NCBI RefSeq assembly: GCF_038070105.1
Contig: NZ_JBBPBZ010000002.1
Coordinates: forward strand, 3,330,501 to 3,394,500
DNA: 64,000 bases
Direction of reading: 5' to 3'
From: Methylocystis sp. IM3
GTDB lineage: Bacteria; Pseudomonadota; Alphaproteobacteria; Rhizobiales; Beijerinckiaceae
Position numbers and translations under genes: made by a program. The notes under the pieces are model-generated. The model was not told where the DNA came from and searched no databases. It worked only from the letters and a program-made list of their open reading frames with translations. Every line of letters starts with the position of its first letter. The first letter of the stretch is position 1. Of this stretch, positions 22,773 through 39,525 are shown one piece after another.

Positions 22773-22827
22773 GGCTCCGCGAGCGCAGGCGAGAGCGGAC
22801 GAGAGCGGGCGATTTCTGCGGATTTTT

Positions 22828-23514: not shown

Positions 23515-23617
23515 GGCTTCAGCCTTGCAAAGTAGCTGCAAATCACGGGCGCGCCTTATAAAAACCAAATTGGAAAGGTGCTTTTGCACTGGAATTTTGT
23601 CATGAGCGAGAACAGCA

Positions 23618-24511
23618 GTGATTGATTTACATTCCCATATTTTGCCGGGCATTGACGATGGCGCCGCGGATCTCGCTCTGTCGCTTGAAATGGCCAGGAT
23701 CGCCTCATCGGAAGGCGTTGTCGTCCAGGCCTGCACGCCTCACATCTTTCCCGGCGTCTATAATAACACCGGCCCTCAAATACGGGCCGCTGTGGTTGAA
23801 CTCCAACGGGAAATCGACGAAGCGGGGATCGAGCTGACGCTTGTCACAGGGGCGGACGCGCACATGGTCCCCGACATGGTGGGCGGCCTGCGCAACTCGA
23901 CTATTCTGTCTCTTGCCGACACAAGATATGTCCTTGTCGAGCCGCCGCACCATGTCGCGCCTCCGAGAATCGACGCCTTCTTCTTCGACCTGCTCGCGGC
24001 GGGTTATGTGCCCGTGCTCACTCATCCAGAAAGGCTGCGGTGGATCGAAGCGCATTACGAGACCTTTGTCCGCCTGTTCCGCGCCGGCGTCTGGATGCAG
24101 GTGACCTCGGGCTCCCTCACGGGCGCCTTCGGCGCCAGACCCAAGTATTGGGGCGAGCGCATGCTCGATGAAGGCCTTGTTCATATCCTCGCGTCCGATG
24201 CTCATGGCGTGCGTCGTCGGCGGCCCGACCTCGCCGCTGGCCGAGCGGCGGCCGAAAAATGGGTGGGCGCCGAGGAAGCCGAGCAGCTCGTTTATCTGCG
24301 TCCCTACGCCATCCTCGAAAATGTGGACCCCTCGTCTGTCCGCCCGCCCGCCGGGGCGACGCATCCGGGAAGCTATGCGGCCTCACGCGCGCATCAAGAC
24401 ATGCCAGCGCGCGCGCATGGCGGCGGTCCGTCGAAAGCGGACTCCTCCTCCGGGTTGGGCAAGGTTTTCGGCGTTGCGCGCAGCGCCCTCAGGAGAGGCA
24501 TTTTCAGCTAG
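23618..24511 (+). CDS. CpsB/CapC-type PHP-fold tyrosine phosphatase
   Basis: A 297-residue metal-dependent protein-tyrosine phosphatase. MIDLHSHILPGIDDGAADLALSLEMARIASSEGVVVQACTPHIFPG contains the HxH metal ligands and the family's DLHSHxLPGIDDG signature; LTHPERLRW and ILASDAHGV are the later metal motifs. It would dephosphorylate the Wzc-type kinase encoded downstream and so control chain length and export. GTG start. About 60 C-terminal residues (Pro/Ser-rich, basic end) extend beyond the usual domain. Confidence 0.92.
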   Translation: MIDLHSHILPGIDDGAADLALSLEMARIASSEGVVVQACTPHIFPGVYNNTGPQIRAAVVELQREIDEAGIELTLVTGADAHMVPDMVGGLRNSTILSLADTRYVLVEPPHHVAPPRIDAFFFDLLAAGYVPVLTHPERLRWIEAHYETFVRLFRAGVWMQVTSGSLTGAFGARPKYWGERMLDEGLVHILASDAHGVRRRRPDLAAGRAAAEKWVGAEEAEQLVYLRPYAILENVDPSSVRPPAGATHPGSYAASRAHQDMPARAHGGGPSKADSSSGLGKVFGVARSALRRGIFS

Positions 24512-24548
24512 GCGGAGGCGGCGGGCGCAACGAAAAGGCTGCGTCTCT

Positions 24549-25844
24549 TCAATCCGACGCAATACTCAATTTATCGAACCATATTTCGCCCGAAAGAAGC
24601 TCCTCCGACGGCGAACGCGCGGCGAGCCCCAGCCGCAGTGATTGCACCGGGCAGCCCTTTTCAGGCACAGAGAATGCGAATTCGAACTGCGCCCAATCCT
24701 CGGTCAGCCCCGTTGTGTGCCGGCTTTGACCGAGGATTTTGTTGTCGGCGCAAGACACCATCCACATGACGCCGCGCGGTCCGTCGAGATCGCTCTTGTA
24801 AGAGCCTTTGAGTTTGTAACGCCCTGGGGTCAGCATTGTAATCTGAGAAATTCCGGGGAATTCCGCTCTCCCGGAACTGAACCCGACCAGTAGTGCGCGA
24901 TCGGCGTCCTTTTCGGATTTAGCCACGAAATCCACCGTGACATTGGCGACCGGAGGAACCTGCCAGTCGAAAGGCGAGCCCGACGGCTTCTTCTCAAAGT
25001 CTCCATTGAACAGAAATCCAGCATGCTCCAGATCCTCCGGAGGCAGGAACTGAAGCCAGACATAATAGGCGAGCTCGACAAATCTCTTGTTGATCAGGAA
25101 CCATTGGTAGGCATTGAGCTCCTTGACGTTGGCGGGCGCCGCGGTCTCTCTGAGATCCATGAGAAGCTTCAATGGCACGGATGCATCCGAGAGGTTGTTG
25201 TAAATCAATCCGAAAAAGACGGGGCGCCAAGGCGGATTTTGCGCCAGAAGCTTCACAACCTCCTGTTCGCCTGCTCCCTTGCTTTCCAGCATCCTGGCGA
25301 GCGGCGGCATGACGTAATCAGGGAGGACGGTCCCCGAGCGCAGTAATACGTCGGCGTAGTAGGCGGAAGACGGAAAATTCTTGTTCTCGAGAGCCCTGGT
25401 CATCAGCCAGAACGCCGCATATCCCTCATGCAGAGAATGCCGGGCTGCCGCAACCATTGCTGAAGCGGCAAGTTTGCGAGATCCCTGCAGTTCGGCAAGC
25501 TGACCTAGCAGCCGGTAATTTTTGCCGCTCAGCGGATCGGCCAGCAACGCTAATTCAGCTTGCTTTCTCAGTTCTTCGATTTTTTTTTGCGGATGTCTCG
25601 GCGCTTGTGGAGCATCCGGTCGCGCGTCGGGATTAATTTGCGCATCGGCGATGGAATATAAGGCCGTCGCCTGCCGGGCGTCGAGCCACAGAGCCCAATC
25701 GGGCGCGACTCGCGCGAAATAAGCCGCGAAACTATGTGTGAAAATGAGCCAGCACAGGATGAGGCCGAAAGCGAAAAAACCAAGGACGAGCGCGGGCGCG
25801 CGGCGCAACCCTTGTTTTTTCAGTCGCCAGTCGCGGTCAAACAT
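24549..25844 (-). CDS. Membrane-anchored protein of the exopolysaccharide locus, unknown
   Basis: A 431-residue protein with one N-terminal membrane helix (APALVLGFFAFGLILCWLIFTHSFAAYFA). Residues 80-300 are helical with TPR-like stretches (KQAELALLADPLSGKNYRLLGQLAELQGS). The C-terminus (NGDFEKKPSGSPFDWQV ... GRYKLKGSYKSDL ... GEIWFDKLSI) reads like a carbohydrate-binding jelly-roll domain. The order TPR then carbohydrate-binding suggests a periplasmic partner of polymer assembly or export. Its stop lies 37 bases from the phosphatase gene it converges with. Confidence 0.75.
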   Translation of the reverse strand: MFDRDWRLKKQGLRRAPALVLGFFAFGLILCWLIFTHSFAAYFARVAPDWALWLDARQATALYSIADAQINPDARPDAPQAPRHPQKKIEELRKQAELALLADPLSGKNYRLLGQLAELQGSRKLAASAMVAAARHSLHEGYAAFWLMTRALENKNFPSSAYYADVLLRSGTVLPDYVMPPLARMLESKGAGEQEVVKLLAQNPPWRPVFFGLIYNNLSDASVPLKLLMDLRETAAPANVKELNAYQWFLINKRFVELAYYVWLQFLPPEDLEHAGFLFNGDFEKKPSGSPFDWQVPPVANVTVDFVAKSEKDADRALLVGFSSGRAEFPGISQITMLTPGRYKLKGSYKSDLDGPRGVMWMVSCADNKILGQSRHTTGLTEDWAQFEFAFSVPEKGCPVQSLRLGLAARSPSEELLSGEIWFDKLSIASD

Positions 25845-25853
25845 GGGAACGCG

Positions 25854-26486
25854 TCAGAATTTCACGTTGAACGCGAAGGCGAGGAGGCGCCCGATAAGGC
25901 CCGGGCGTTTATGCGATCGGGCGGGCGTGTGCCGACGTGATTGCGCGAGCGAGCCTTCGCGAAAAATCGTCTTCTCGGCTTCGGCGCTTCTCCCCCGCTT
26001 CACATCGCGCTCGCGATGATACGCCTCCTCGGCAAGGCGAGCATCCAGAGACTGATCGTACGCCGCGCGTCGCGCCGGCGTTTTGACGTTGTTCCAGGCC
26101 TGCGTGATCCTGACGAGATAGGCCGGCCCTGCAAAGCCTTCTCTTTCCTCTGAATGAGCCCATTTGCACAGATGGACGAAGTTCTGTCTCAGATGAGGCG
26201 TCGGACTTTCCCGGGTGGCCCCGAGCGCGCGATAGCTATCGACACCGGGAGCGAGCAATATTTGTTCGATGAAGAAGGAAGCGGCGTCCATGAGGTGTCC
26301 AGGGGTGCGTTGAAGGCCTTGTGACAGCGCCTCAGCGGTTTCGAAATCGACAGCCACCTTGATCAACGTGTCCACGCCATCCGGCAGCGGCGACTGGCGC
26401 ACGTGACGCCCCCGCGGCGGGGCGGAAAGCAACGACAACGCCGCCCGGATTGCTTGAAGCTCGCCCTCACGCGGCGGCGGAGCCGT
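25854..26486 (-). CDS. J-domain-like protein lacking the HPD motif
   Basis: A 210-residue protein from ATG 26486 (an in-frame ATG at 26513 also exists). Residues about 90-155 resemble a DnaJ domain: YRALGATRESPTPHLRQNFVHLCKWAHSE ... AYLVRITQAWNNVKTPARRAAYDQSL, where helices II and III and the closing AYDxxL are clear. The HPD tripeptide that triggers Hsp70 ATPase is replaced by HSE. The basic C-terminus ends in a hydrophobic stretch (LIGRLLAFAFNVKF). It overlaps the end of the kinase gene by 20 bases and is probably cotranslated with it. Confidence 0.7.
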   Translation of the reverse strand, partial: TAPPPREGELQAIRAALSLLSAPPRGRHVRQSPLPDGVDTLIKVAVDFETAEALSQGLQRTPGHLMDAASFFIEQILLAPGVDSYRALGATRESPTPHLRQNFVHLCKWAHSEEREGFAGPAYLVRITQAWNNVKTPARRAAYDQSLDARLAEEAYHRERDVKRGRSAEAEKTIFREGSLAQSRRHTPARSHKRPGLIGRLLAFAFNVKF

Positions 26487-28752
26487 CATCCGTCGAGTCC
26501 TTGCCGCGTTCATGCATCCCGGTTTCGCCCGCGCCTTCTATCTGCTCCGGTTCGGAGCCATAGCCATAGCCGTAACCATATCCGTACCCATAGCCATAGC
26601 CGTAACCGTAACCGTAACCACCTCCGAAGCCCGCCTTTTTGGGATCGTATTTGGTCACAATAATGCCGAGAGGCGTTACCCGCGCGCGCTTCAGCCTCTT
26701 GAGGGCATTGCGGATCAACCCGACGCGCCCTTGCCCTGCAGCGATGATGAAAACAGTCGCTTTTGCGATATTGCCGAGCACGAGCGCATCAGCCATTCCC
26801 ATGACCGGCGGCCCGTCGATAATCACCATGTCGAATACTTCGCCGCTGGACGAAATCAGGGAAGCAAAGCGCGCCCCATTGAGCAATTCAACCGGATTGG
26901 GCGGCGTCGGACCCGCTGACATGATATGCAGGTCGGCGGTTCCTTCGAGTTGCCTGATCGCTTCGCCAAGTTCGCAGTTATGGGTGAGATAGTTGCTCAG
27001 CCCGATATTGTTGTCGAGGTGCGCCTTCTGGTGCAAGGACGGCTTGCGCAAATCGGCGTCGATCACGAGCACGCGTAGCCCCAGGGCGCAGAATTTGTTC
27101 GCCAGGCTGAACGCGACGCTCGATTTGCCCTCGCCGGGTCCGGAACTGGTGACGACAAGCGTCTTGGGCACGCCGGCTTCGGTTGAAAACTGAAGCGAGG
27201 TGCACGTGGATCGGAACGCTTCCGAGACGGCGGAGCGAAGATCGAGGCATTCGTCTTCGAACAACTTGCCGCTCGCGGGTTTCGGAATGACGCCATGCAA
27301 CGTCAGACCGCAAACCCTTTCGGCCTCTGCCGGATCGTGGACGACGTCGTCAATATGCTCCAGCGCGAAAGCGCCTCCGACGCCAATCACGAGCCCGAGA
27401 GCCAGAGCGATCAACATCGCTTTTGGCCTGTTCGGCGAGCTCGGGCTGCTCGGAAGCAACGCCCTCTCGACTATGAAGACGTTGTTTGTCCCGATGCCGC
27501 TCGCGACGTCCACTTCCTTGTAGCGCTGCAAGAGGTTCTCGTACAGAGCGCGGGTGCTGTCCACCTCCCTTTTCAGGAGGTTGTACTGGACGCTTCTTTT
27601 TTGAAGATCGAGGGTCTCCTGCCGCAGCTTTTCGATCCTCTCCTTCATCTGATTTTCCTGATTGAGCGCGCCCTCATAGGCGGCCTTCAGGGATGATTTT
27701 ACGGTTTTGACCTCGACGCCGATCTGATGTTCGACCTCCTTGATCTTGCCGCTCAATTGCATCATTTCGGGATAGTTAGGCCGGAAGGTCTGCGACTTTT
27801 CCTGATACTCCGCGACCAGTTGCCCCCGTCGGCCCCGCAGCTCCTGAATGGCCTGGTTGGTGAGCAATTGCGGGAGGTCGATGCCGCCGGAGCTTTCCGC
27901 CTGGCGCCACAATTGTTCGTTCTTCATGCGGTCCGCGATGATCGTGCCAAGCGCAGCGTTCGCGGCGGCAAGATTGCTTTCCGCCACCGACTCCTTGTCC
28001 GTGGTGACGACGATCTGCTCCTTTTCGGCAAAGGCGATCATCGCCTTCTCCGCTTCCTCGAGACGCAACTTCAGCTGCTTGACCTGATCCTCCAGAAAGG
28101 ACTTCGCATAAGCGTTTGCCTGAAACCGCTTATCAAGGTGCGAGGCGACATAGGCGTCGCCATACGCATTGGCGGTCGTTTGCGCGCGGCTCGGATCGCC
28201 GTCGGTGTACAAAATATCCACCAGGCGCGTCCCGGCCACGGGCTTGACGGAAACGCCGCCGAGCACACTATCCGCCGCAGCCCGATCCCGGTCTGAGCGC
28301 TCTTTTGCGGAACCTGCCTGGACCCCGGCCTCCTTGCCAAGATGAAGCCGAGACGCAACCCGCTCGGCGAGACTGCGTCCCTTCAGCAGCTCCAGTTCCG
28401 TTCCCATGTAATCTTCATTGCGCTCGACGTCTTCCGCGCCATTTTTGAGGATGGTCGAGGCGTTCTTGTCGATCTGCAGCCTGATTGACGCCGTGTAGAG
28501 CGGCTTTTGCAAAAACACCCACAAACCGCCAAGCGCGAGACATGAGGCTACTGCAATCCCGATCAGTCGCTTCCGCTTCAGAAGAACGCCGATGATCTCT
28601 CGCAGATCGATCTTGGAGTCTTCCGACGGCTCGCCGAGGTAACCGCCCGCTTCGGGGTAGGCGTAGCCGCCCGGCCAGTTGGCCGGACTTTGCATCATCG
28701 AGCCTTTTCCTTGGGCGTCAATCTGAACAGGCAGCTCTCTGTCGGCCATCAA
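26467..28752 (-). CDS. Wzc-type polysaccharide copolymerase / tyrosine autokinase
   Basis: A 761-residue inner-membrane protein controlling exopolysaccharide chain length and export. A Wzz domain with two membrane helices (RLIGIAVASCLALGGLWVFL and AMLIALALGLVIGVGGAFAL) encloses a long periplasmic coiled-coil. The cytoplasmic BY-kinase domain has Walker A SSGPGEGKSSVAFSLA near residue 535, Walker A' VLVIDADLRKPSLHQ and Walker B MVIIDGPPVMG. The C-terminal tyrosine cluster that is normally autophosphorylated is here ten consecutive Gly-Tyr pairs. The CpsB-type phosphatase nearby is its expected counterpart. Confidence 0.95.
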   Translation of the reverse strand: MMADRELPVQIDAQGKGSMMQSPANWPGGYAYPEAGGYLGEPSEDSKIDLREIIGVLLKRKRLIGIAVASCLALGGLWVFLQKPLYTASIRLQIDKNASTILKNGAEDVERNEDYMGTELELLKGRSLAERVASRLHLGKEAGVQAGSAKERSDRDRAAADSVLGGVSVKPVAGTRLVDILYTDGDPSRAQTTANAYGDAYVASHLDKRFQANAYAKSFLEDQVKQLKLRLEEAEKAMIAFAEKEQIVVTTDKESVAESNLAAANAALGTIIADRMKNEQLWRQAESSGGIDLPQLLTNQAIQELRGRRGQLVAEYQEKSQTFRPNYPEMMQLSGKIKEVEHQIGVEVKTVKSSLKAAYEGALNQENQMKERIEKLRQETLDLQKRSVQYNLLKREVDSTRALYENLLQRYKEVDVASGIGTNNVFIVERALLPSSPSSPNRPKAMLIALALGLVIGVGGAFALEHIDDVVHDPAEAERVCGLTLHGVIPKPASGKLFEDECLDLRSAVSEAFRSTCTSLQFSTEAGVPKTLVVTSSGPGEGKSSVAFSLANKFCALGLRVLVIDADLRKPSLHQKAHLDNNIGLSNYLTHNCELGEAIRQLEGTADLHIMSAGPTPPNPVELLNGARFASLISSSGEVFDMVIIDGPPVMGMADALVLGNIAKATVFIIAAGQGRVGLIRNALKRLKRARVTPLGIIVTKYDPKKAGFGGGYGYGYGYGYGYGYGYGYGYGSEPEQIEGAGETGMHERGKDSTDDGSAAA
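26560..26619. repeat. Ten hexanucleotide repeats encoding (Gly-Tyr)10
   Basis: Ten in-frame units of the form GG(C/T/A/G)TA(C/T) on the minus strand encode alternating Gly and Tyr at the kinase C-terminus. Synonymous differences between units show the repeat is not brand new. Hexanucleotide slippage would change tyrosine number without shifting frame. Confidence 0.95.
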
Positions 28753-28781
28753 CTTATCCCTTGGGCGGCGTCCGCCAGCCG

Positions 28782-29552
28782 TTAAATGAATGGAACCGCG
28801 TAACCTGCGATCGGCAAAACTTTGAGGACGAGGTTCAAGCCTGTTTTCGTGGTGGAATCCTCGACGACGATGACGTCGCCGGGAACGACTGGCGGATCCT
28901 CGACCGTCCCGTTGCGAATATCGCCGAGGTCATAGCGTATCATCGTCCTCTGTCCCTCGGCGATTCTGAAGACCACTACACTATCTGAAGACGTAGAGCG
29001 CTCCACCCCGCCCGCCCTGGCGATCGCCTGTTCGAGCGTATCGCTCCCGCGCATGGGGAAGACGCCCGGATTTTTGACCGCTCCTTCGACCGTCAATCTT
29101 TGACTGTTGTATTCCTTGATTGAAACGGTGACTTGCGGCGAACGCATGTAGCCGGCGTCCAGACGCTTCTGTATGTCCCGTTCCAACGCAGACGGACTTT
29201 TGCCGCTCGCCATCGTCTGCCCAATCAAGGGCAGATTTATGGTGCCGTCATCGGCGACCGGAACGGTCCTGGAAAGATCCGGCGCCTTGAAGACAGTGAC
29301 CTCGAGCACGTCCTGCGGACCGATCAGATAGGTGGAGCTGCCAGGCGTTGTTGCGGAAACATATCTGTTTGCGACCTTCGCAGCGGCCGCTTCCGAACTC
29401 GACGGCTGCCGTTCCTGTGAAGAAAAACCACCGTCCCCCTCCGGAACCCCATTGCAGCCGCTGACGCCAATGGCGAAGCCGCTCGCGAATATGAATATTA
29501 ACAGCAATCTAATTGGCTTCAGGAAAAAATCCTCTTGCGCTTGGGAATCCAT
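28782..29552 (-). CDS. Wza-type outer-membrane polysaccharide export lipoprotein
   Basis: A 256-residue protein beginning MDSQAQEDFFLKPIRLLLIFIFASGFAIGVSGC with lipobox GVSGC. The polysaccharide export domain follows (YLIGPQDVLEVTVFKAPDLSRTVPVADDGTINLPLIGQTMASGKSPSALERDIQKRLDAGYMRSPQVTVSIKEY), then an SLBB domain (QRLTVEGAVKNPGVFPMRGSDTLEQAIARAGG). It forms the outer-membrane channel for the polymer with the adjacent kinase. It lies 29 bases upstream of the kinase gene in the same direction. ATG 29552 is picked from the signal peptide. Confidence 0.93.
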   Translation of the reverse strand: MDSQAQEDFFLKPIRLLLIFIFASGFAIGVSGCNGVPEGDGGFSSQERQPSSSEAAAAKVANRYVSATTPGSSTYLIGPQDVLEVTVFKAPDLSRTVPVADDGTINLPLIGQTMASGKSPSALERDIQKRLDAGYMRSPQVTVSIKEYNSQRLTVEGAVKNPGVFPMRGSDTLEQAIARAGGVERSTSSDSVVVFRIAEGQRTMIRYDLGDIRNGTVEDPPVVPGDVIVVEDSTTKTGLNLVLKVLPIAGYAVPFI

Positions 29553-29898
29553 GGAGCACCTTGTCAAACCGTAAGCTAAGCCATACGGGCCGCAGTTACT
29601 TACGGTTATCGCAGAAGCAAAAAAAAAGAAATCCTCGTCACGACCAGAGGCAATAGGCGCGATCACTTCAGGCGAGATTTTGATGTGGCCAGTCGATCCG
29701 AAACATTAGTATGCCATTAATCAACTTCTCTCGGGACTGTTGCCGAATCGCAACGATTCAAGGGAAAAATTGATTGAATGGTCACGGCTTTGCTTGCGGG
29801 AGCGGCCGCCCTGGGTTACCGCTGAAGATAGGGTCGGTCATTTGAATACAGCCAAAGCTGGCGGATTATCCTAGGCGATCGCCTGAAGGAGCGTATTG
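29553..29898. other. 346-bp divergent intergenic region
   Basis: It separates the leftward Wza-Wzc operon from the rightward FecR-like gene and is clearly less GC-rich than the genes around it (including a run of nine A residues near 29619-29627). It holds the inverted repeat described separately and presumably both promoters. No gene or RNA recognised. Confidence 0.45.
29567..29607. promoter_or_regulatory. Candidate operator: 9-bp inverted repeat upstream of the export gene
   Basis: AACCGTAAG (29567-29575) and CTTACGGTT (29599-29607) are perfect inverted copies whose centres are 32 bases apart, close to three helical turns. They lie 15 bases upstream of the export-protein start, where a regulator of the Wza-Wzc operon could bind. 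Confidence 0.4.
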
Positions 29899-30390
29899 AT
29901 GAAAACTCTCAAAGTTCTTATGGTTGCACTTCTTGCAAGCAGCACGGCGCATGCCGCCGCCCTGAGCGATATCAAGGGCGATGTCCTCGTCAACCACGGC
30001 GCAGGCTTCGCAAAGTTTGATAAATCGATCGACCTCGCTCCTGGCGACAAGATCAAGGTTGGCAAAAAGGCTACGGCCAAGCTCGTGTATTCTGACGGAT
30101 GCAGCGTCACCATCCCGGGCGGCGCGCTCGCGACCGTCGCGAAGCAGTCGCCCTGTTCGTTCCGGGCGCAGCTGACCGGCCGCGGCGAGAGCCCGGAGGA
30201 CGTGTGCCGGGACTCTGTCGATCCGCGTTGCTGCGGCGTTGGGGACAATGTCGCAGCCTGCGGGCTTCTCGTGGGCGGCATCGCCGGCGTCGGCGGCGGC
30301 ATCGCGGCCGCCTTGGCGACCCAGCAGCACTCCTATTCCACTTTCATCCCGCCGGCTGGCGTCACGCCGCCGGCTGGCGCCAGCCAGTAA
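29899..30390 (+). CDS. Secreted FecR-like protein of the exopolysaccharide locus
   Basis: A 163-residue protein with signal peptide MKTLKVLMVALLASSTAHA. The mature part, ALSDIKGDVLVNHGAGFAKFDKSIDLAPGDKIKVGKKATAKLVYSDGCSVTIPGGALATV, resembles a FecR-type beta domain. A Cys-rich segment (DPRCCGVGDNVAACG), a Gly-rich hydrophobic stretch (LLVGGIAGVGGGIAAAL) and a PPAGVTPPAGA tail follow. AAGGAG seven bases upstream supports ATG 29899. Its place between the export and polymerase genes suggests a role at the cell surface. Confidence 0.72.
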   Translation: MKTLKVLMVALLASSTAHAAALSDIKGDVLVNHGAGFAKFDKSIDLAPGDKIKVGKKATAKLVYSDGCSVTIPGGALATVAKQSPCSFRAQLTGRGESPEDVCRDSVDPRCCGVGDNVAACGLLVGGIAGVGGGIAAALATQQHSYSTFIPPAGVTPPAGASQ

Positions 30391-30423
30391 GGCGGAATCG
30401 CTGCAATAAATGGTCGAACCATT

Positions 30424-31923
30424 TTGCCCCTGTCGTCGCCCGGCAATTTGACTGGACGACGACAGGTGTTTTTTTACCTCACCTTCGCCTGTTTTCTCGC
30501 AAGCCTCGTCCTTGGCGGCCCGACGAAGCACGCCTCCCTTCAGGACGCGCTGCTTCAGCTTTGCGCCGTGCCGCTGCTCCTCCTGGCCGGCTGGCGGCTA
30601 TGCAATTTGCCGACAACACGGGAGATGCGTTGGTCGCTGGCGTTTTGCGCGGCCATACTCGCGCTTCCGCTCATTCAGCTCATACCGCTGCCCCCCCTCA
30701 TCTGGACACAGCTTCCAGGACGGGAGGCGCTGGTCTCCACGTATACGCTGCTTGGCCGCTCCCCCGACTGGGCCGCCATCAGCCTATCCGGCCAGGAGAC
30801 TTGGCTCTCGATGCTCTCTTTGCTTCCGCCGCTGACCCTTTTTCTCGCAGTCTTGACCCTCGACTGGAGGGAATGCCGCCTGTTGAGTCTGCTGCTGGTC
30901 GCATTTGCCGTGCTGAGCGCATTCGTCGCTCTCTTGCAGGCGGCGCAGGGCGTCGATAGTCCGTTTCGCTTCTACAACGTCGATTTGCGCGATCCGTCGC
31001 CCGTCGGATTTTTTGTCAACCGCAATCATCTTGGCGCTCTGCTTTATTGCGGAGCCGCATTCGCGACGGCCTGGCTTCTCGCGTCCTACGACGCCGTTCG
31101 ACTGGATCAAGACCGGATCGACCACCAGACCATCGTCACCATGGCCGGATCGGCGTTCGCCCTTGTCGCGCTCGTTTCCGTCGAGCTGGTCGTCAGGTCG
31201 CGCGCCGGCGTCCTGCTCCTGTTTCTCGGTTTGGGCGCGCTCCCCATCCTGGCGGCGATACGCCCCTCTCCCCACGCAGAATTCGACGGCGCCGAGTCGG
31301 AAAGCCTCGGGCGACGACACTGGCTCCCCGTCGCCGCCGCCTTCATCATGCTCGCGCTGGTCGCATTCTTCTTCGTAGGCTGGTCGTCGATCCAGGGCGT
31401 TTTCGACCGATTTGGCGCCGATCCGCTTTCCGATGAGCGGCCGGTCTTCGCCAGAGTGACCTTTTTTGCGACCAAGGCTTTCATGCCCGTCGGATCCGGC
31501 CTGGGCTCTTTTGTCTCCGCCTACCAGATGTTCGAAAAGCCGCGAGACATGTTCAGCGGCGTCTATGCGAACCACGCGCATAATGACCTGCTCGAACTGG
31601 CGCTGGAAACAGGCATGGCGGGCCTCATGCTCCTATGCGTATTTATTGTCTGGCTCGTCACGCGCGCGCGCAAGGTCTGGACGGCGATCAACCGGCCCGT
31701 TATCGACGTCTATTTGCAGGATGCGGCCATGATCGTCATTTTTCTCTTTCTCGGCCACTCGCTCATGGACTATCCGCTTCGCACGAACGCTCTGCTGTCA
31801 GTCTTTGCCTTTGCGTGCGCGCTCCTGATCAAGGCGCCCGGCGGCGGCGAAGCTCACACGCAAGGCAGGACGCGTCAGGAACGCCGGCGGCGGCGCGATG
31901 CATTGGCGCAAAACGCAGCCTGA
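30424..31923 (+). CDS. O-antigen ligase / Wzy-type polymerase family protein
   Basis: A 499-residue inner-membrane protein with about eleven hydrophobic segments. Conserved family elements are NRNHLGALLYCGAAFA in the middle and YANHAHNDLLELALETGMAGLMLL in the last third (HxHN...E.G..G of Wzy_C/WaaL). It would polymerise or ligate lipid-linked repeat units on the periplasmic side. The start is uncertain: TTG 30424 lacks a ribosome binding site and lies in a terminator-like hairpin; in-frame TTG 30445 or GTG 30466 are alternatives. Confidence 0.85.
   Translation: MPLSSPGNLTGRRQVFFYLTFACFLASLVLGGPTKHASLQDALLQLCAVPLLLLAGWRLCNLPTTREMRWSLAFCAAILALPLIQLIPLPPLIWTQLPGREALVSTYTLLGRSPDWAAISLSGQETWLSMLSLLPPLTLFLAVLTLDWRECRLLSLLLVAFAVLSAFVALLQAAQGVDSPFRFYNVDLRDPSPVGFFVNRNHLGALLYCGAAFATAWLLASYDAVRLDQDRIDHQTIVTMAGSAFALVALVSVELVVRSRAGVLLLFLGLGALPILAAIRPSPHAEFDGAESESLGRRHWLPVAAAFIMLALVAFFFVGWSSIQGVFDRFGADPLSDERPVFARVTFFATKAFMPVGSGLGSFVSAYQMFEKPRDMFSGVYANHAHNDLLELALETGMAGLMLLCVFIVWLVTRARKVWTAINRPVIDVYLQDAAMIVIFLFLGHSLMDYPLRTNALLSVFAFACALLIKAPGGGEAHTQGRTRQERRRRRDALAQNAA
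30429..30474 (+). terminator. Hairpin plus T-run at the start of the O-antigen ligase gene
   Basis: CCTGTCGTCG (30429-30438) and CGACGACAGG (30457-30466) form a perfect 10-bp stem with an 18-base loop, followed by TGTTTTTTT. It looks like an intrinsic terminator for the FecR-like gene but overlaps the first codons of the ligase frame. It may attenuate the ligase, or the true ligase start may be further in. Confidence 0.55.
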
Positions 31924-32098: not shown

Positions 32099-33283
32099 AT
32101 GCCTGAAGCCGAAACCATCATTTGCGCCCTGTTGCGCGGCGAACGCCCGACCTGGCCGGCGGATGGAAATGACGCATTCACGAGCCTCTTTCTCGAACGG
32201 AGCGCGTATCATGGGGTTCAGGCATTACTTCACCAGCATCTGACCAATGGGACATTCCGCGAGCTGGGCTGGCCCCCATCCATTCTGGACGCATGCAGAG
32301 AGGCGGCTGTCGGCCAGGCGATGTGGGAAATGCGCCATAAGGAAATTCTGGGGAGCCTCCTGGACCGCCTCGCCGAGATCGGCGTACGCCCCATTCTTTT
32401 CAAGGGAACCGCGCTCGCTTACAGCGCCTATCCCGCGCCCTTCATGAGGAGGAGAGGCGACACGGACGCGCTCATCCCGCTTCACGCGAAAGAGCAAAGC
32501 TGCGAGGCGCTCGAATCGCTGGGTTTCCGCCGCACGGCCTGCGCGCGCGGCGATCTCGTCAGCAACGCCATAGAGTATGCGATCGAGGACGCGGGCCTTG
32601 GCGCGCATGAAATCGACCTCCATTGGCGGATCAGCAATGCCCAGGTGCTTTCCAGACTGTTTTCTTATGATGAACTGGTCCGCGCCGCCTCTCCTCTACC
32701 AGCTTTGAGCCCCCACGCAATTGGACCTGGCGATATGCACGCGCTGGCTATCGCCTGCATGCATCGAGCCGAACACAAGGAATGCCCCTATTTTGTGGAT
32801 GGGGTTGAATACTACGACGGCGATCGTCTCATATGGTTTTATGATATGAGCCTGATCTGCAAGAACTGGGAAAGCGCCGATTACGACGCCTTCTTCGATC
32901 TCGTCGAGGAAAAGCGCTTGCTCAACAATTGCCTCGAGGCGCTCGAAAAGGCGAGGGCGTATTTCGGAAGCGGGCCGTCACGCGAGATCGTGGAGCGGCG
33001 GCGGAAAACGGGCGCAAATGATGTTATCTCGACTTATCTCGCCGCTTCGCCGCTGGATCAGTATTCTGCAAATTTCGCGGCGATCCCGGGCGCAGGGGAC
33101 AAGCTACGTTTTCTGATACAAATTCTTTTTCCTCCCGTCGAATATATGCGCGAAATGTATGCCCACGTCGAACCGAACTGGCTGGCGTGGCTTTATGTGC
33201 ATCGCATCGTGAACACGGTCGCGAAGCGATTGAAGAGAACGTTTCCCGCGCTTTTTCAATTCGGGGACGCGGATCGGAGCTGA
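32099..33283 (+). CDS. Nucleotidyltransferase-family protein linked to RiPP clusters
   Basis: A 394-residue protein of the NTP_transf_5 type. The signature is IRPILFKGTALAYSAYPAPFMRRRGDTDALIPLHAKEQSCEALESLGFRR near residues 98-150 (KGxxL, then R..GDTDxLI with the metal-binding acidic pair). Further conserved parts are EIDLHWRISN and DMHALAIACMHRAEHK. In lasso-peptide loci with HPr-kinase-like and PqqD-like genes this family is a recurrent neighbour and is thought to modify the product or precursor; the reaction is unknown. Here it converges on the lasso operon. Confidence 0.82.
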   Translation: MPEAETIICALLRGERPTWPADGNDAFTSLFLERSAYHGVQALLHQHLTNGTFRELGWPPSILDACREAAVGQAMWEMRHKEILGSLLDRLAEIGVRPILFKGTALAYSAYPAPFMRRRGDTDALIPLHAKEQSCEALESLGFRRTACARGDLVSNAIEYAIEDAGLGAHEIDLHWRISNAQVLSRLFSYDELVRAASPLPALSPHAIGPGDMHALAIACMHRAEHKECPYFVDGVEYYDGDRLIWFYDMSLICKNWESADYDAFFDLVEEKRLLNNCLEALEKARAYFGSGPSREIVERRRKTGANDVISTYLAASPLDQYSANFAAIPGAGDKLRFLIQILFPPVEYMREMYAHVEPNWLAWLYVHRIVNTVAKRLKRTFPALFQFGDADRS

Positions 33284-33356: not shown

Positions 33357-35108
33357 TCACGCCGGCGCGATCAAGCGCCCTTGTTCAAGTCGCAGGACCT
33401 GGCAGGCGGCGCCGACGCGCGCGGGGCGATGGGTCACGAGGACCATCGTCACCCGACCGACGAGCGCCTCTATCCCTTCCAGAACCATTCGCTCGTTCGC
33501 CTCGTCCAGCGAACTTGTCGGTTCATCGAGGATCAGGAGAGCGGGGCGACGGAGAAGAGCGCGCGCGAGGGCCAGTCTTTGCCTTTCGCCGCCGGAAAAC
33601 CGCGTTCCGCGATCGCCGACGATCGTCTCGAGCCCCTCGGGCAGCGCATCGACAAACCCCGCCGCTCCGGCCAGCGTCAGCGCCTCGCGCAGTTCGGACT
33701 GACTTGCATGGGGTTTGGCGATCGACAAATTCGCCCGAATGGTGGAGTGAAACAGAAAGGGATCCTGCGCGACATAAGCGATGGATTGCCGCCATAGCTG
33801 CGCCAGTTCGCCTGTCAGCTCCCGGTCGTCGATGCGGATTTTGCCCTCCGTGGGGGACAGGAGCCCGGCCAGCAAATCGAGAAGCGTGCTCTTGCCGGCT
33901 CCAGAAGAGCCGGTCAGGACAGTCAGTGCGCCTTTCGGCAGGCGCAGGGTGACGTCGCGCAACGCCTCTGGCGCGTTTGCCGCATGCGCGAAGGAGACCT
34001 TGTCGAAGCGTATCTCTCTCTCGAGGTTGAACGCCTGCTGCGGCTCGCCATGCGGCGTTTCGCGCGCCGCTGAGCAGTCCCTCAAGAGCGCCAGAATGGT
34101 CTGGGCGGCGGGCGCGACGTGCAAGAGCTCCTGCGCCGCCTGCTGTAGAGACTGCACCAGGGGCAGGAGCCGGTAGAAGATCAGAGCCAGCACCAGAACC
34201 TGCGCCACCGGCATGTGAAACGCGCCGGCGCTGACGCCGAGGAAAACCGCGACCGCACAGGCGCCGGCGATCTCTTGCATCGTCCGGGCGTTGCCCTGGC
34301 TTTTGACGAAAGACAGGAAATTTCGCCTTATCTCGTCGACGGTTGTGGCGAAGGCCGAGACATATTGCTCTTCGGCGACATAGCTTTTGGCGATCTTCAG
34401 CCCGGCGAGAAACTCGGAGACCGCATGCTGGTAGTCCTGATAGGCGGTCGTCAGCGCTTCGCCGAGGCGCAGACTTTCGCTCAGCCTGCCCCGCGCAATC
34501 CAGACAAGGGAGAAACCGACTGCGAGCGCAGCAAGGGTCAAGACGGGGGCGATCACGCAAGCTGCGGCGATATGCGCGCCGATGAGCAACATGCGGCTCG
34601 GCATTTGCAGCGCGTAATACACCGCCGTGTCGAGGCGATCGGTCTCGGCGGTGAGAGCGGCCAGCAAATCCGCAGGCCGAAGCCGGCGCAAAAAGGACCA
34701 GTTGGCGTGTGCGATCGCCGAATAAAGACGGACGCGCGTTTCGCTCAGAAAATTCAGGCGCAAGTTGGTGAGGTAAAGGTCGCTCCGGCGATTGAGCAGC
34801 GAACGGGCCGCCGCCACGGCGATGAAGATCGCCAATACGCTGGTGAGATTGAGCTGCACGCCGAGACGTTGCAGCCAATGCGGCAGCCAGGTCATCGGTC
34901 CCTGCGTCGGCCCGCCGGCGGGATCGAGCGACTGGATCAGCGGAACCAGAAAAAGCAGCGCCGCGCCTTCGCTCAGGCCCGAACTCAAAGCCAGGGCGCT
35001 GGCGATAAAGAGGCGACGCGCTCCCACTTCGGCGACGAGCAATCGCCAGAAGCGCGCAATCTGACGTAACGCGTCGAGAACAGTGGCGGCGGCGGGCGCG
35101 TCGCTCAA
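33357..35108 (-). CDS. ABC exporter (fused TMD-NBD), likely lasso-peptide exporter
   Basis: A 583-residue half-transporter. Six membrane helices span residues 25-320, and the ATPase domain has Walker A TGSSGAGKSTLLDLLAG near residue 400, signature FSGGERQRLALARALLRRP near 503, Walker B ALLILDEPTSSLDE and H-loop VLVTHRPARV. There is no N-terminal C39 peptidase, in line with a separate leader protease in the cluster. It starts at TTG 35108 with GGAG eight bases upstream. As last gene of the operon it is the probable exporter and immunity factor. Confidence 0.9.
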   Translation of the reverse strand: MSDAPAAATVLDALRQIARFWRLLVAEVGARRLFIASALALSSGLSEGAALLFLVPLIQSLDPAGGPTQGPMTWLPHWLQRLGVQLNLTSVLAIFIAVAAARSLLNRRSDLYLTNLRLNFLSETRVRLYSAIAHANWSFLRRLRPADLLAALTAETDRLDTAVYYALQMPSRMLLIGAHIAAACVIAPVLTLAALAVGFSLVWIARGRLSESLRLGEALTTAYQDYQHAVSEFLAGLKIAKSYVAEEQYVSAFATTVDEIRRNFLSFVKSQGNARTMQEIAGACAVAVFLGVSAGAFHMPVAQVLVLALIFYRLLPLVQSLQQAAQELLHVAPAAQTILALLRDCSAARETPHGEPQQAFNLEREIRFDKVSFAHAANAPEALRDVTLRLPKGALTVLTGSSGAGKSTLLDLLAGLLSPTEGKIRIDDRELTGELAQLWRQSIAYVAQDPFLFHSTIRANLSIAKPHASQSELREALTLAGAAGFVDALPEGLETIVGDRGTRFSGGERQRLALARALLRRPALLILDEPTSSLDEANERMVLEGIEALVGRVTMVLVTHRPARVGAACQVLRLEQGRLIAPA

Positions 35109-35171: not shown

Positions 35172-35315
35172 CTAGCCGGAGAGCTCCGCGCGATTGTCCC
35201 CAGGCTCGGCCACGGCGCATTCATCCGACCGGCCGAACCAGCCCGCGAAGGACGCCAACGCCTCCGGGTCGTCCAAAGCCCGCCCGACCGCCGGCAGACC
35301 CCGGAGTCGGCGCAT
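35172..35315 (-). CDS. 47-residue ORF coupled to the PqqD-like gene, unknown
   Basis: ATG 35315 overlaps the stop of the PqqD-like gene by one base (TAATG). The frame reads MRRLRGLPAVGRALDDPEAL, then ASFAGWFGRSDECAVAEPGD, then NRAELSG and stop. Third-position GC is high like that of real genes nearby, and the gene fills most of the gap before the ABC exporter. It has no leader motif, so it is not a second precursor. It may be a small accessory protein or a remnant. Confidence 0.4.
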   Translation of the reverse strand: MRRLRGLPAVGRALDDPEALASFAGWFGRSDECAVAEPGDNRAELSG

Positions 35316-35593
35316 TATGCGTCCTTCATCCACAACAGACGACGGGCCAGCAGCTCTTCCACCAATTGCGCGATATCGCGGTCGAGCTCATCCGGCGCCA
35401 CCTCGAATTCGTCCAACAGGCTCTCGCGAGCCTCTTCGAGCGCCTTTCCATCCCTGATGCATCGGAACATGCAGGCGCCGACCTGGTTGAGGCCGTAATA
35501 GGTTCCATTTCTCAGATCCAGAAGGACGATTTCCTCTCCGACCTCCTGAACCAGGATATCGGGAGAAATGACCAGATTATCGACCGAGTTCAT
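35315..35593 (-). CDS. PqqD-like RRE protein (lasso B1)
   Basis: A 92-residue winged-helix peptide-binding protein: LVISPDILVQEVGEEIVLLDLRNGTYYGLNQVGACMFRCIRDGKALEEARESLLDEFEVAPDELDRDIAQLVEELLARRLL. This is the PqqD fold, which in lasso clusters binds the YxxPxL part of the precursor leader and presents it to the B2 protease. Its ATG overlaps the stop of the kinase gene (ATGA). No pqqA, B, C or E genes are present, so a PQQ role is ruled out here. Confidence 0.9.
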   Translation of the reverse strand: MNSVDNLVISPDILVQEVGEEIVLLDLRNGTYYGLNQVGACMFRCIRDGKALEEARESLLDEFEVAPDELDRDIAQLVEELLARRLLWMKDA

Positions 35594-36543
35594 GAGGTCG
35601 CTCCCTCGGATGTCGCATGCTCGACGATGGCCTTTCGCACCCGCCCGAGTTCATCGAGCCGCCGCGGATAATCGAGTTCGTAACCGACGAGCGCATCTGT
35701 CAGAGCTGCTATCCGTTTGAAGTGGCTGGCGACGATGGCGGGGTCCTCCACGTCGAGCAGGAAAGAATTCTTCGCCCAGCCCATGAGGGTTTCGGCTTTG
35801 GTGAGTTTGCGGAAGACAGTCTCTTGCGCGCCGCCGTCCCCCAGAAAATAGGCGACGCGCAAGGGCCGGGGCTGATCGCAATAGGCGAGTCCGGATCCGG
35901 CCAGAAACCGGGTCTTTGTCGTGAAATGCAATGCCGCGGCGCGCTCGACGCCGCTTTTCGACAGGATTTTTTCGCTGTCGCTCCAGAGGCGAACGGACGG
36001 ATGGCCAGGCGCCACCTGGAACCCATCGTCGCAAGGCTCGAGCATCAATCCGTCATCGACGAGGAGGCGATGCCCGCTGCTTGCGAAGCTGGCCACCAAC
36101 GTCGATTTGCCGCGCCCCGACTGGCCGAGAAACACAACCGCCGACTCCCCGATTTCGACGGCGCCGCCGTGAAACACATAGCGCCCCCGATTCCCCAGCA
36201 GGACTGGAAGAACCTGACTTTGGAACAGGTGGTGCGGGGTCGCGTCATCGACGCCCGGCGCGGGAAAACAGGAGATGCGGGAGCCCTCCTCCGCCACCTC
36301 GAAATCCGCCAGACCGGGAAAGCGCAGGAGATAGCCGGACGGCATGCGGTAAAATTGCGCGGCGCGGCTTCCGTCCGGAAAAACCCACTCATAGAAAGGC
36401 GGGTCCAATTCGCGCCCCTGTTGGCGCGGCGCCAAAATCGTGAAATCGGAAACCCCCACACCGCTCTCCGAACCCGAGTCCCGCACGCGAGCCGTCATCC
36501 ACATGCTTCGAGGGAAATCGGCAACCGAAAAAGAGCGACCCAC
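35590..36543 (-). CDS. HPr-kinase-like enzyme of the lasso cluster
   Basis: A 317-residue protein with a C-terminal HprK-type kinase fold. The P-loop VVFLGQSGRGKSTLVASF lies at residues 137-154, preceded by YVFHGGAVEIGESA and followed by RLLVDDGLMLE, in the order of the HPr kinase family. Related enzymes in lasso clusters phosphorylate a Ser of the precursor (known for paeninodin). There is no PTS gene nearby. It begins at GTG 36543; an internal ATG at 36501 is possible, as no strong ribosome binding site is seen. Confidence 0.85.
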   Translation of the reverse strand: MGRSFSVADFPRSMWMTARVRDSGSESGVGVSDFTILAPRQQGRELDPPFYEWVFPDGSRAAQFYRMPSGYLLRFPGLADFEVAEEGSRISCFPAPGVDDATPHHLFQSQVLPVLLGNRGRYVFHGGAVEIGESAVVFLGQSGRGKSTLVASFASSGHRLLVDDGLMLEPCDDGFQVAPGHPSVRLWSDSEKILSKSGVERAAALHFTTKTRFLAGSGLAYCDQPRPLRVAYFLGDGGAQETVFRKLTKAETLMGWAKNSFLLDVEDPAIVASHFKRIAALTDALVGYELDYPRRLDELGRVRKAIVEHATSEGATS

Positions 36544-36607: not shown

Positions 36608-36772
36608 TCAAGGCCTAGCGCGGTTCGGGCCGGGATGCTCGTGATTCTCTCTGCGGCCCGAGCAGCCGGATTGGACCAGTTTCTTCACGGTCCCATAGAC
36701 AGTCAATTCCGGACGCGCATAGGTTTTCCGGTCAGCGTCCGCCTGCGACGGCTCAATATTTTTCTGGTCCAT
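36608..36772 (-). CDS. Lasso peptide precursor
   Basis: A 54-residue peptide between the cyclase and kinase genes, preceded by AGGAG seven bases from the ATG. The leader is MDQKNIEPSQADADRKT, then Y18-A-R-P21-E-L23-T-V-Y-G27, the YxxPxLxxxG motif bound by B1 proteins in lasso systems, then TVKKLVQ. The predicted core after Q34 is SGCSGRRENHEHPGPNRARP: Ser1 to Glu42 (core position 8) gives an eight-residue ring; cleavage after S35 would give Gly1 and a seven-residue ring. The usual Thr at -2 is Val33. It is too short to be found by ordinary gene length cut-offs. Confidence 0.85.
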   Translation of the reverse strand: MDQKNIEPSQADADRKTYARPELTVYGTVKKLVQSGCSGRRENHEHPGPNRARP

Positions 36773-36815
36773 AGGTCTCTCCTTAAGGCAGACGCGATCA
36801 GAAATGCAGGCGGGA

Positions 36816-38714
36816 TCAGCCGCCTCTGAATTCGCGCTCCGTCAACCAAACGCTCAACGCGCCGAGGCCGAACCGCTCGAGCAACTGCTCGTCGTCAACG
36901 CCCCCGGCAGACTCAACGAAACTTACCCACCTAGCCAAATTGTCCCGGCGAAGGTCACAGATTTGAGGATAAACGTCAACCATCATCTGAAACAGTGTAT
37001 GATGAAATTTCCAGCCTGGATTGCCGTTTATGCTCCTCCTCCACAGAACCTCCTCAGGAAGTATACTGTCCATGCTCCGCCGCAGGAGGCGCTTGTACCA
37101 CTCGGCGTATAGTTTTGATTCAACCGGCATTCTCACTGCAAATTCGATCATTCTGCGGTCGGAAAACGGACTGCGGGGCTCCACCCCTTTCGAGAACGCG
37201 ATTTCCCCGTAGACCTCATGCGCAAAGGACAGAAGGCCGGAAGTGAAGTATCGCGCGTGGTGCGCCTGATCGCCCCGGTTCCGCGCCTTCGCCGCAGCCT
37301 CGCGGCGCAGTGCGTATTTCGTCGCCAGCGCGCCTCTCGTGACCTCTGTATAGGAGCAAGCGGCGCCGCCCCGCAGCAGGGCGCGCTGATCTCGCGATTC
37401 CCGATAGAAGTTTCGAATAGATTCAGGGGTCAGGGCGGCCAGTCCCTGACGCGCCGCTTGCCGGAGGGCCGACACCCCGCCGACCCCATGCCGGACGTGG
37501 GCGCGAAAGATGGCCGGGAGAGACCCAAACGATCTCTCCTGAAGGACGGCGTTCAGGCTTCCCTCATAGCCGTAAAACAGCAGATCGCCCGCCATGCCGT
37601 CTAAAGCGACCCTGCAGCCCTTGGCGCTCGCCGCTCCGTAGATCAAATGCGCCACCAATCCATGAGTGAGCGCGAAGGGCTCATCCGCCGCGCAGCCGGC
37701 GGCCAGAAACGCGCGGCACGTCTCGCCTGACAGGCTGGAAGTCAGAATCTCCGCGTCTATCCAGTCGTCCCTCTCGATGACGCTTCTTATGCAGGGCCAG
37801 TCCAGACAGTTTTCCCGATCGTCGCGGATGAGGGAGAATGTTCGCAGAGGCTCGCTGAGACGCCCTCTGAATTCCTTGCTGATGAGGCAGACAATCGATG
37901 TGGAGTCGAGTCCGCCGCTCAGCGCCGCGCCGATGGGCCCTATGCTTCTCAAGCGGCATTTCACGGCCACGCGGAGCTGTTCGAGAAATGCTTCCGCGCA
38001 TTCGTCGAGCGACGCAAAGGAGACCGCCGGGAGGTTGCCGGGATCCCAGTACCGCCAGCTTACCGCGCCTTCCGCGGCGACCTTGATCGCGTGTCCGGCC
38101 GGCAGCCGCTTGATATTGCGATAGAAGGTTCCGATTTCGTCGTCCCGATCGAACTCGGGCGCGATGAAATCGACGACCCGCGAGTCATTCAGCCGGGCGT
38201 CGATGCGCCCAAGCGCCAACAGGCCCTTGATCTCCGACGCGAAAGCAAACCAGCGCGCGCCCTCATGATAATAAAAGTGCCGCGCGCCCGCCGCGTCCCG
38301 CGCGCCGAACAAATGCCTTCGCCGCGAATCCCAGACGAAAAAGACGAACTCGCCGATAATCCAGTGAGGGCATTCCTCGCCCCATGTCTCGTAAGCCCGC
38401 AATACCAGCTCTGCATCCGTATCGCCGCGCAACACGACGCCCCGCCACATGAGCTCCCGCGTCAGATCCTCACGATTATCGACACGGCCGTCCATGACCA
38501 GGACGAGGCTTTCATCTTCATTCGTCAGCGGCTGCGATTCGTGAAGAGACTCGGGCGTCGTCCGCAGCATGCAGTGCCCGAGACCAACCGATCCCTCGAC
38601 GCGCTGCGCGCATCCATCGGGCCCACGCAGGGCCATCGCAGTCGTCATCTTTTCGACCGCCGCCGCCTCGACGGGAGCGCCGTCGAATTGCACGACGCCA
38701 GCTATGGCGCTCAT
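36816..38714 (-). CDS. Lasso cyclase (asparagine synthetase B-like)
   Basis: A 632-residue two-domain protein. The N-terminal glutaminase-like domain starts MSAIAGVVQFDG, with Ser in place of the catalytic Cys2, so it cannot release ammonia from glutamine. The C-terminal synthetase domain keeps the ATP pyrophosphatase loop GAALSGGLDSTS at residues 262-273. In lasso systems this enzyme adenylates the core Asp/Glu side chain and the N-terminal amine closes the ring. ATG 38714 gives the family N-terminus; its start is 13 bases from the B2 stop. Confidence 0.93.
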   Translation of the reverse strand: MSAIAGVVQFDGAPVEAAAVEKMTTAMALRGPDGCAQRVEGSVGLGHCMLRTTPESLHESQPLTNEDESLVLVMDGRVDNREDLTRELMWRGVVLRGDTDAELVLRAYETWGEECPHWIIGEFVFFVWDSRRRHLFGARDAAGARHFYYHEGARWFAFASEIKGLLALGRIDARLNDSRVVDFIAPEFDRDDEIGTFYRNIKRLPAGHAIKVAAEGAVSWRYWDPGNLPAVSFASLDECAEAFLEQLRVAVKCRLRSIGPIGAALSGGLDSTSIVCLISKEFRGRLSEPLRTFSLIRDDRENCLDWPCIRSVIERDDWIDAEILTSSLSGETCRAFLAAGCAADEPFALTHGLVAHLIYGAASAKGCRVALDGMAGDLLFYGYEGSLNAVLQERSFGSLPAIFRAHVRHGVGGVSALRQAARQGLAALTPESIRNFYRESRDQRALLRGGAACSYTEVTRGALATKYALRREAAAKARNRGDQAHHARYFTSGLLSFAHEVYGEIAFSKGVEPRSPFSDRRMIEFAVRMPVESKLYAEWYKRLLRRSMDSILPEEVLWRRSINGNPGWKFHHTLFQMMVDVYPQICDLRRDNLARWVSFVESAGGVDDEQLLERFGLGALSVWLTEREFRGG

Positions 38715-38727
38715 TGCCGAAACGACC

Positions 38728-39162
38728 TCACGTGAAAGATTTTTCGAAAACAGCGTAATGCTTGCCGACATCCGCCGCATCGTTCACGGGGACGCCCGCG
38801 ACTTCGATCCAGGCGTGGCCCATGAGGCGGCCGGGGGCCAATCGCGTGCCGATCCGCAACTCGCACATGACGCCGAGACGGCGCAACAGCCAGGCCAGAT
38901 ACAAGGATCGGATCAGGCAATTGTCGGATCCGAAAAGGTGGAAAGCCGCCGTGTTGACGAGACGGGCGATCTTCACGACGTCGTCATGGGAAACCGGCGC
39001 CAGCCCAGGCGAAGGGGCCCCGATGAACCAGCGCATGAAGCTCTTGAATCCAAGAACCTGCAACGCCAGCCAGAAAATCGGCATCAAGACGAACGCCATC
39101 CCCAGGATCCGCCTCTCACGTCCCGAGAGAGAAAAAAATTTTGCGTATCTTGTTGCTGGCAC
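38728..39162 (-). CDS. Lasso peptide B2 leader peptidase (transglutaminase-like)
   Basis: A 144-residue cysteine protease-like protein. A hydrophobic helix (MAFVLMPIFWLALQVLGF) precedes the catalytic domain with Cys82 (SDNCLIRSLYLAWLLRRLG), His116 (MGHAWIEV) and Asp128 (VPVNDAAD), the Cys-His-Asp triad of the B2 family. It removes the precursor leader in an ATP-assisted step with B1. It is first in the operon. The start is GTG 39162 by comparison with family N-termini; the ribosome binding site is weak. Confidence 0.92.
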   Translation of the reverse strand: MPATRYAKFFSLSGRERRILGMAFVLMPIFWLALQVLGFKSFMRWFIGAPSPGLAPVSHDDVVKIARLVNTAAFHLFGSDNCLIRSLYLAWLLRRLGVMCELRIGTRLAPGRLMGHAWIEVAGVPVNDAADVGKHYAVFEKSFT

Positions 39163-39449: not shown

Positions 39450-39525
39450 TGGTGCCGCAAGAGGGATTCGAACCCCCGACCCCATCATTACGAATGATGT
39501 GCTCTACCAGCTGAGCTATTGCGGC
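39450..39525 (-). tRNA. tRNA-Thr (anticodon CGU)
   Basis: The minus strand folds as a complete cloverleaf of 76 bases with CCA encoded. The acceptor arm GCCGCAA pairs with TTGCGGC, the D arm reads GCTCAGCTGGTAGAGC, the anticodon arm CATCA-TTCGTAA-TGATG gives anticodon CGT (reads ACG), and the T arm is GGGGG-TTCGAAT-CCC type. The lasso operon promoter lies about 170 bases downstream of its 3' end; tRNA-flanked positions are common insertion points for acquired clusters, but no integrase is visible. Confidence 0.95.

Follow-up and report, generated by a model that had tools for sequence, protein, structure and literature searches.

The window, the whole 64,000-nucleotide stretch of Methylocystis sp. 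IM3 DNA analysed here, contained a full lasso peptide gene set, B2-C-A-K-B1-D-N, within 7 kb, with B2, C, A, K, B1, and D on the minus strand. The leader peptidase B2 (38728..39162, minus strand) scored 69.2 bits against lasso_biosyn_B2 (NF033537; cut-off 33), matched Transglut_core3, and contained Cys82 and His116, which we take to be its catalytic residues. The best NCBIfam model for C, an asparagine-synthetase-like macrolactam cyclase (36816..38780, minus strand), was that of the lasso cyclase (lass_lactam_cya, E 1e-130; 437 bits, below the cut-off of 525), while the Asn_synthase (PF00733, 141 bits vs a cut-off of 21) and GATase models were passed. C holds the motif SGGLDST and has Ser after its inner Met (MSAIAG), the position at which amidotransferases carry Cys. 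The leader-binding protein B1 (35315..35593, minus strand) is PqqD-like (PF05402, 55.3 bits, cut-off 23.4) and matched the lasso PqqD model at E 1.5e-16, under that model's cut-off.

The HPr-kinase-like precursor kinase K (35590..36543, minus strand) fell below all kinase model cut-offs (HprK_rel_A, E 5e-12), yet it contains His125, the P-loop GRGKST, and Asp163-Asp164. These coordinates give the longest reading of K. Its relatives begin near residue 31-33 of that reading, and a same-species genome differs by 1 base in length near its start; the true start is probably ATG 36504/36498 or GTG 36459. Downstream lie the ABC exporter D (33357..35108, minus strand; ABC_tran and ABC_membrane) and, convergent with it, the NTP_transf_5 nucleotidyltransferase N (32099..33283, plus strand; PF14907, 93.5 bits, cut-off 31.2). 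N is likewise adjacent, and 99% identical, in locus L041 of the same-species genome (G301, Hyphomicrobiales bacterium AWTP1-1). A tRNA-Thr(CGT) gene identified by ARAGORN (39450..39525, minus strand) borders the cluster at one end. At the other, a polysaccharide locus adjoins it (21282-31923; sugar transferase, CpsB/CapC, Wzz/GNVR, Poly_export, and Wzy_C).

Between the cyclase and kinase genes lies the 54-codon precursor gene A (36608-36772, minus strand, ATG start), translated as MDQKNIEPSQADADRKTYARPELTVYGTVKKLVQSGCSGRRENHEHPGPNRARP. Its start follows the end of the C ORF at 36816 by 43 bases, and its stop precedes the K start by about 64-148 bases, depending on the K start codon chosen. The Shine-Dalgarno-like AAGGAGAG (36777..36784, minus strand) has its last base 4 bases upstream of the ATG at 36772, and the AGGAG within it ends 6 bases before the ATG. 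The leader (residues 1-34; 36671..36772, minus strand) carries the motif YxxPxLxxxG at residues 18-27 as YARPELTVYG (Y18, P21, L23, G27) and has Val at position -2. Placed in the register of its relatives, the predicted 20-residue core (residues 35-54; 36611..36670, minus strand), SGCSGRRENHEHPGPNRARP, begins with Ser1, has an acid within positions 7-9 (Glu8), carries Cys3 and Ser4, and continues into an Arg/His/Pro-rich tail ending in RARP. A sequence-only reading of this DNA had described such a gene between the cyclase and kinase, together with its AGGAG site and leader motif, and these features were recovered. Its remark that the gene was too short for gene callers did not hold, as a 54-residue protein 93% identical to A (P0003) is already a predicted database entry.

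NCBIfam precursor models matched A below their cut-offs (lasso_cyano, E 7e-4, 19.5 bits vs 33; lasso_leader_L3, 14.9 bits vs 19), and a protein search with A as query returned one candidate. Among ORFs of 30-110 residues, the leader motif occurred once in the window, compared with a mean of 0.13 in 60 random order-1 Markov sequences of the same length. When the ring residues were also demanded, the chance expectation in those sequences fell to 0.017.

To place A among its relatives, we turned to the kinase. The K sequence alone found no cluster in the genome collection, while an alignment of 27 kinases recovered 62 loci, all of which were scanned. A relaxed leader motif gave 70 matches near a kinase, and requiring Thr or Val in position -2 together with an acid at core position 8 or 9 reduced these to 53 distinct ORFs at 43 of the 62 loci. 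This set excludes the window precursor and was by design selected in a Tyr/Trp(-17) register. By eye, the 15 motif matches without Thr(-2) were chance frames, with the exception of the L041 allele. Within the limits of the Thr/Val filter, 52 of the 53 precursors have Thr at -2, and the single Val belongs to L041. The acid occupies core position 8 in 45 precursors and position 9 only in the other 8, and the first core residue is Gly (23), Ser (12), Ala (11), Asn (5), or Thr (2). Only L041 and L059 carry a Cys anywhere in core residues 1-8. Nothing passed the filter at 19 loci, although some of these do hold precursors: L055 has an S74-fused form (described below), L046 a stand-alone form farther from the kinase, and L101 (G297) two precursors with Trp for Tyr and shorter spacing. 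Two further filter-negative loci showed an S74 piece at a contig edge (L072) and an S74 match (L096).

As most relatives have their acid at core position 8, Ser1-Glu8 is the natural ring for the window precursor and Val(-2) its unusual feature. Comparison with related sequences thus lends good support to SGCSGRRENHEHPGPNRARP as the core and to a Ser1-Glu8 ring, and the glutamate that the sequence-only reading had placed at a ring-forming distance in the tail falls in the register of the 53 relatives. Its lasso precursor interpretation is likewise supported by enzymes with their motifs, by the ring register, and by a nearly unchanged leader and ring beside a variable tail, and the leader motif is kept beside related kinases as counted above. 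The description of the core as unfamiliar needs amending in that the cluster has relatives among the kinase loci; the core sequence itself is the gene's own. A looks intact and belongs to a known class of kinase-type lasso precursors, and we consider it very likely that it encodes a kinase-type lasso peptide with a Ser1-Glu8 ring. A start of the ring at Gly36, closing on Glu42 over seven residues, would use the most frequent first residue and give a Ser at core position 3, the modified residue of BsfA, but it requires Gln(-2), moves Tyr to -18, and forfeits the acid at position 8 that the window shares with 45 of 53 relatives (themselves chosen in the Tyr/Trp(-17) register), and we hold it to be very unlikely.

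Across 39 genomes of the genus, a full-length cyclase of >90% identity was present only in the window's own genome and G301. G300 has a cyclase fragment of 85 residues at 71% identity, and the other matches at E 1e-30 showed 27-36% identity. The window's genome also contains a second kinase-type cluster on contig 6 (L022:7835-12234), with K, B2, C, B1, and N matches of 28-37% identity; no precursor with the usual motif was recognised there.

Comparison with L041 revealed where A varies. The two loci differ by 119 substitutions over 10,884 aligned bases (1.1%). Of these, 1 falls in the 102 nt of the leader and 7 in the 60 nt of the core, where all lie at residue 10 or beyond, outside the ring (binomial P about 4e-6, a value valid for a stretch named beforehand). 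Six core codons changed, 3 non-synonymously and 3 synonymously. P0003 presents a third version of the tail with an identical ring; all three sequences share Val(-2) and core residues 1-9, and their leaders differ at residue 9 only. The polar tail thus differs between nearly identical genomes. Synonymous changes make up half of the altered core codons, so recombination, in place of selection on the peptide, may have shaped the variable tail; either may apply. The cyclase gene differs by 2.2% overall and contains another hot spot, 8 substitutions in 34 bases (37402-37435). This patch lies upstream of the variable core tail and might co-vary with it.

The alignment with L041 ends inside the tRNA-Thr gene (39450-39525). 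On the L041 side, an unrelated stretch with other ORFs (L041:1-4064) adjoins a short segment that matches the tRNA 3' end imperfectly. This arrangement suggests an element inserted at the tRNA-Thr beside the lasso cluster.

Of the characterised systems, BsfA/BsfK from Bradymonas sediminis is close to the window in layout, with separate B1 and B2 proteins, an HPr-like kinase, N, and a YxxPxL leader, as far as its account describes them (PMC10368454). In both precursors, position -2 is aliphatic and not Thr, core position 8 is an acid, a ring Ser is available, and the C-terminal residue is not Ser. According to the same account, BsfK phosphorylates ring Ser3 of BsfA, which has Ile(-2) (PMC10368454). 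The precursors differ in that BsfA has Gly1, Asp8, Ile(-2), and phospho-Ser3, whereas the window precursor has Ser1, Glu8, Val(-2), Cys3, Ser4, and its Arg/His/Pro-rich tail. The paeninodin, ThcoK, and SyanK kinases share with the window K the His, Lys, Asp, and Asp residues and a place in a lasso cluster, but their phosphate is reported on a conserved C-terminal Ser (PMC9266682), whereas the window core ends in Pro. Pseudomycoidin, with PsmK and PsmN, is similarly described as having a kinase and a nucleotidyltransferase beside the lasso enzymes (PMC9266682, PMC8498205). Unlike the window, it comes from a Firmicute cluster and has a C-terminal Ser, and the role of N in the window is putative. 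The phenanthrene-linked Sphingomonas lasso cluster was left aside, as it is presented as a set of three genes, A, B2, and C, with no use of the word kinase (PMC11006600).

Two counts bear on the residue modified by K. No C-terminal Ser was found in 37 stand-alone relative cores, while Ser or Thr is present at ring positions 2-7 in 36 of these 37 and in all 16 S74-fused cores. Core position 3, 4, or 5 is Ser or Thr in 48 of 53 precursors. As small residues are common in such cores, these ring counts are support and not proof. Phosphorylation of a C-terminal Ser, as in paeninodin, was rejected, since the A core ends in Pro and none of the stand-alone relatives ends in Ser; for the same reasons, a ring Ser is the likely target. 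The position modified in BsfA (core 3) is Cys in A, with Ser1 and Ser4 nearby. By analogy with BsfA and from the sequence, K probably acts on one of these two.

We infer each chemical step, the threading, and the export from the genes present. Before cleavage, K would probably phosphorylate a ring hydroxyl, for which Ser4 is the best candidate and Ser1 the other. B1 and B2 would remove leader residues 1-34, the cyclase would join the Ser1 amine to the Glu8 side chain, and the 12-residue tail would thread the ring. The masses calculated for such a product are 2195.03 Da for the core less one water and 2274.99 Da with a phosphate added. N may then load a sugar on the phosphate, as reported for PsmN, and D would export the product. 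With its Ser1, Val(-2), Cys, and very polar tail, the window precursor offers a new context in which leader recognition and phosphorylation of the ring can be put to the test.

Sequence does not reveal threading, and we see no obvious bulky plug pair in the Arg/His/Pro-rich tail. The product could therefore be a cyclised, unthreaded macrolactam or otherwise modified, and hence no lasso; as the cluster enzymes, leader, and ring size are all of the lasso type, we regard this as unlikely. Processing of A is also not assured, because an I(-2)V exchange in BsfA is reported to have nearly abolished cleavage by its own B2 (PMC10368454) and A carries Val at this site, where Thr is the residue in 52 of the 53 relatives. 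The bsf cluster is itself described as silent in the laboratory (PMC10368454). A decaying or silent cluster, in which Val(-2) keeps the leader from being removed and lasso production fails, is nevertheless quite improbable: the window, L041, and P0003 keep the same Val(-2), core residues 1-9, and (residue 9 apart) leader, the enzyme ORFs are open, and Ile or Val at -2 is reported from other kinase-type precursors (PMC10368454).

The window precursor is itself of a known type; the unexpected part of this analysis is a set of relatives with fused precursors. A profile of 22 precursors retrieved proteins annotated as 'tail fiber domain-containing' that bear a lasso leader. In 16 of the 53 precursors (at 14 loci), a Peptidase_S74 domain follows leader and core without a break. 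These 14 loci include Gamma-, Beta-, and Alphaproteobacteria and Cyanobium. Fused forms were seen at L042, L043, L044, L045, L048, L050, L051, L053, L055, L057, L058 (three), L061, L063, L074, and L076, and, in the window's genus, at L028 and L116. Within this genus they occur in G297 (two copies), whose enzymes are distant, and in G306. At E 1e-5, a profile of the fused form matched 45 of 397 family genomes, most of them in the S74 part only; matches reached into the leader in G088, G297, and G306, and more weakly in long frames of G211 and G111.

Residues at the junction resemble those of known self-cleaving domains. All 10 fused precursors tested (of 16) passed the PF13884 cut-off, and in these, position 1 of the profile is Ser (once Cys) directly after the core. 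Across the 16, the residue five before the conserved Lys, taken as the site of the cut, is Ser in 15 and Cys in 1; when 23 fused proteins were aligned, all kept the Lys and nearly all the Ser. In MYRF and endoNF, self-cleavage is ascribed to a Ser and a Lys five apart, with the MYRF cut falling immediately ahead of the Ser (PMC8326128). S74 chaperones of phage tails and MYRF resemble the fused relatives in having a Ser at the cut (presumed in the relatives), a Lys five residues on, and, ahead of both, the part to be released (PMC8326128). That part differs: the phage and MYRF domains release trimeric fibre proteins or a transcription factor, and in the relatives it would be a leader with its lasso core. 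Searched with a profile, the PDB yielded the long tail fibre of a phage (6f45, E 3e-5) as well as MYRF (7dc3, E 7e-4). Cores before the presumed cut are 16-25 residues long (median 19), and stand-alone cores 14-40 (median 19). A structure model of one fused precursor had a mean pLDDT of 72, with S74 blocks at 86-93. Compared with the PDB, it placed MYRF ICA chains first (E 0.14-0.16, TM 0.26-0.34; none at E 0.001), scores so weak that the model adds little to the sequence evidence.

Taken from sequence, these data suggest that the S74 domain is a self-removing follower of the lasso precursor. We know of no earlier self-removing follower of a lasso peptide. The chaperone would trimerise and guide or time core modification and threading, and would then cut at its own Ser, so that auto-proteolysis sets the lasso C-terminus; the window precursor would encode its finished C-terminus directly. 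The architecture is plausible, since lasso peptides engineered to carry a protein at their C-terminus reportedly work (PMC8498205).

Stand-alone and fused forms are interspersed in the kinase tree, where starred branches force at least 8 changes of S74 label, a rough count because loci labelled as precursor-less include L055 and L072, which have S74. L051 and L052, two sister loci in Mesorhizobium, each show a different form, and L074 has a complete S74-fused gene after a stand-alone one. At L067 (6436-6874), the stop of the stand-alone precursor coincides with the start of an S74 remnant (E 2e-25) that lies in a different frame and has an internal stop and the Lys replaced. This case is 1 of 37 stand-alone precursors, and the position of the remnant is as expected if the stand-alone end corresponds to the S74 cut. 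We give an even chance to the proposal that kinase-family precursors switch between a stand-alone core and a core joined to a self-cutting S74 chaperone whose cut makes the lasso C-terminus. If S74 cuts, lasso biosynthesis would include a built-in protein of the phage tail type that serves as both chaperone and C-terminal protease, and genome miners expecting short precursors may have overlooked such peptides.

The window precursor as a truncated S74 form is unsupported, with no S74 trace downstream and no fused gene found in the genome at E 1e-5. S74 domains searched against the window at E 0.01 gave no match, the 330 nt past the A stop gave a single reverse-strand match (E 0.72), and the fused profile had no match in the window's own genome at E 1e-5. 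Lasso peptides together with Peptidase_S74 or endosialidase were not found in the literature searched, and in broader searches the arrangement was absent among the matches listed. The terms 'lasso peptide' and 'tail fiber' did co-occur in three papers of that literature, each term once.

Two features of the surrounding loci complete the comparison. Five polysaccharide-side window proteins, two of them without a Pfam match, have homologues in the retrieved flanks of 7 of the 62 loci, one being that of the same-species genome, a count made with no control set. Between precursor and kinase, 22 of 39 loci examined contain an ORF of 370-401 residues (e.g. L051:5895-7025, L044:5841-6974, L058:5826-6947, and L065:5877-7043). 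Pfam classed each of the 4 such ORFs submitted to it as a methyltransferase whose C-terminal part is arginine-methyltransferase-like, and 3 of them passed the PRMT_C cut-off. One paper in the literature searched names both 'arginine methyltransferase' and 'lasso peptide'. The ORF is absent from the A-K gap of the window, whose genome gave only a weak match to part of it (30% over 133 residues).
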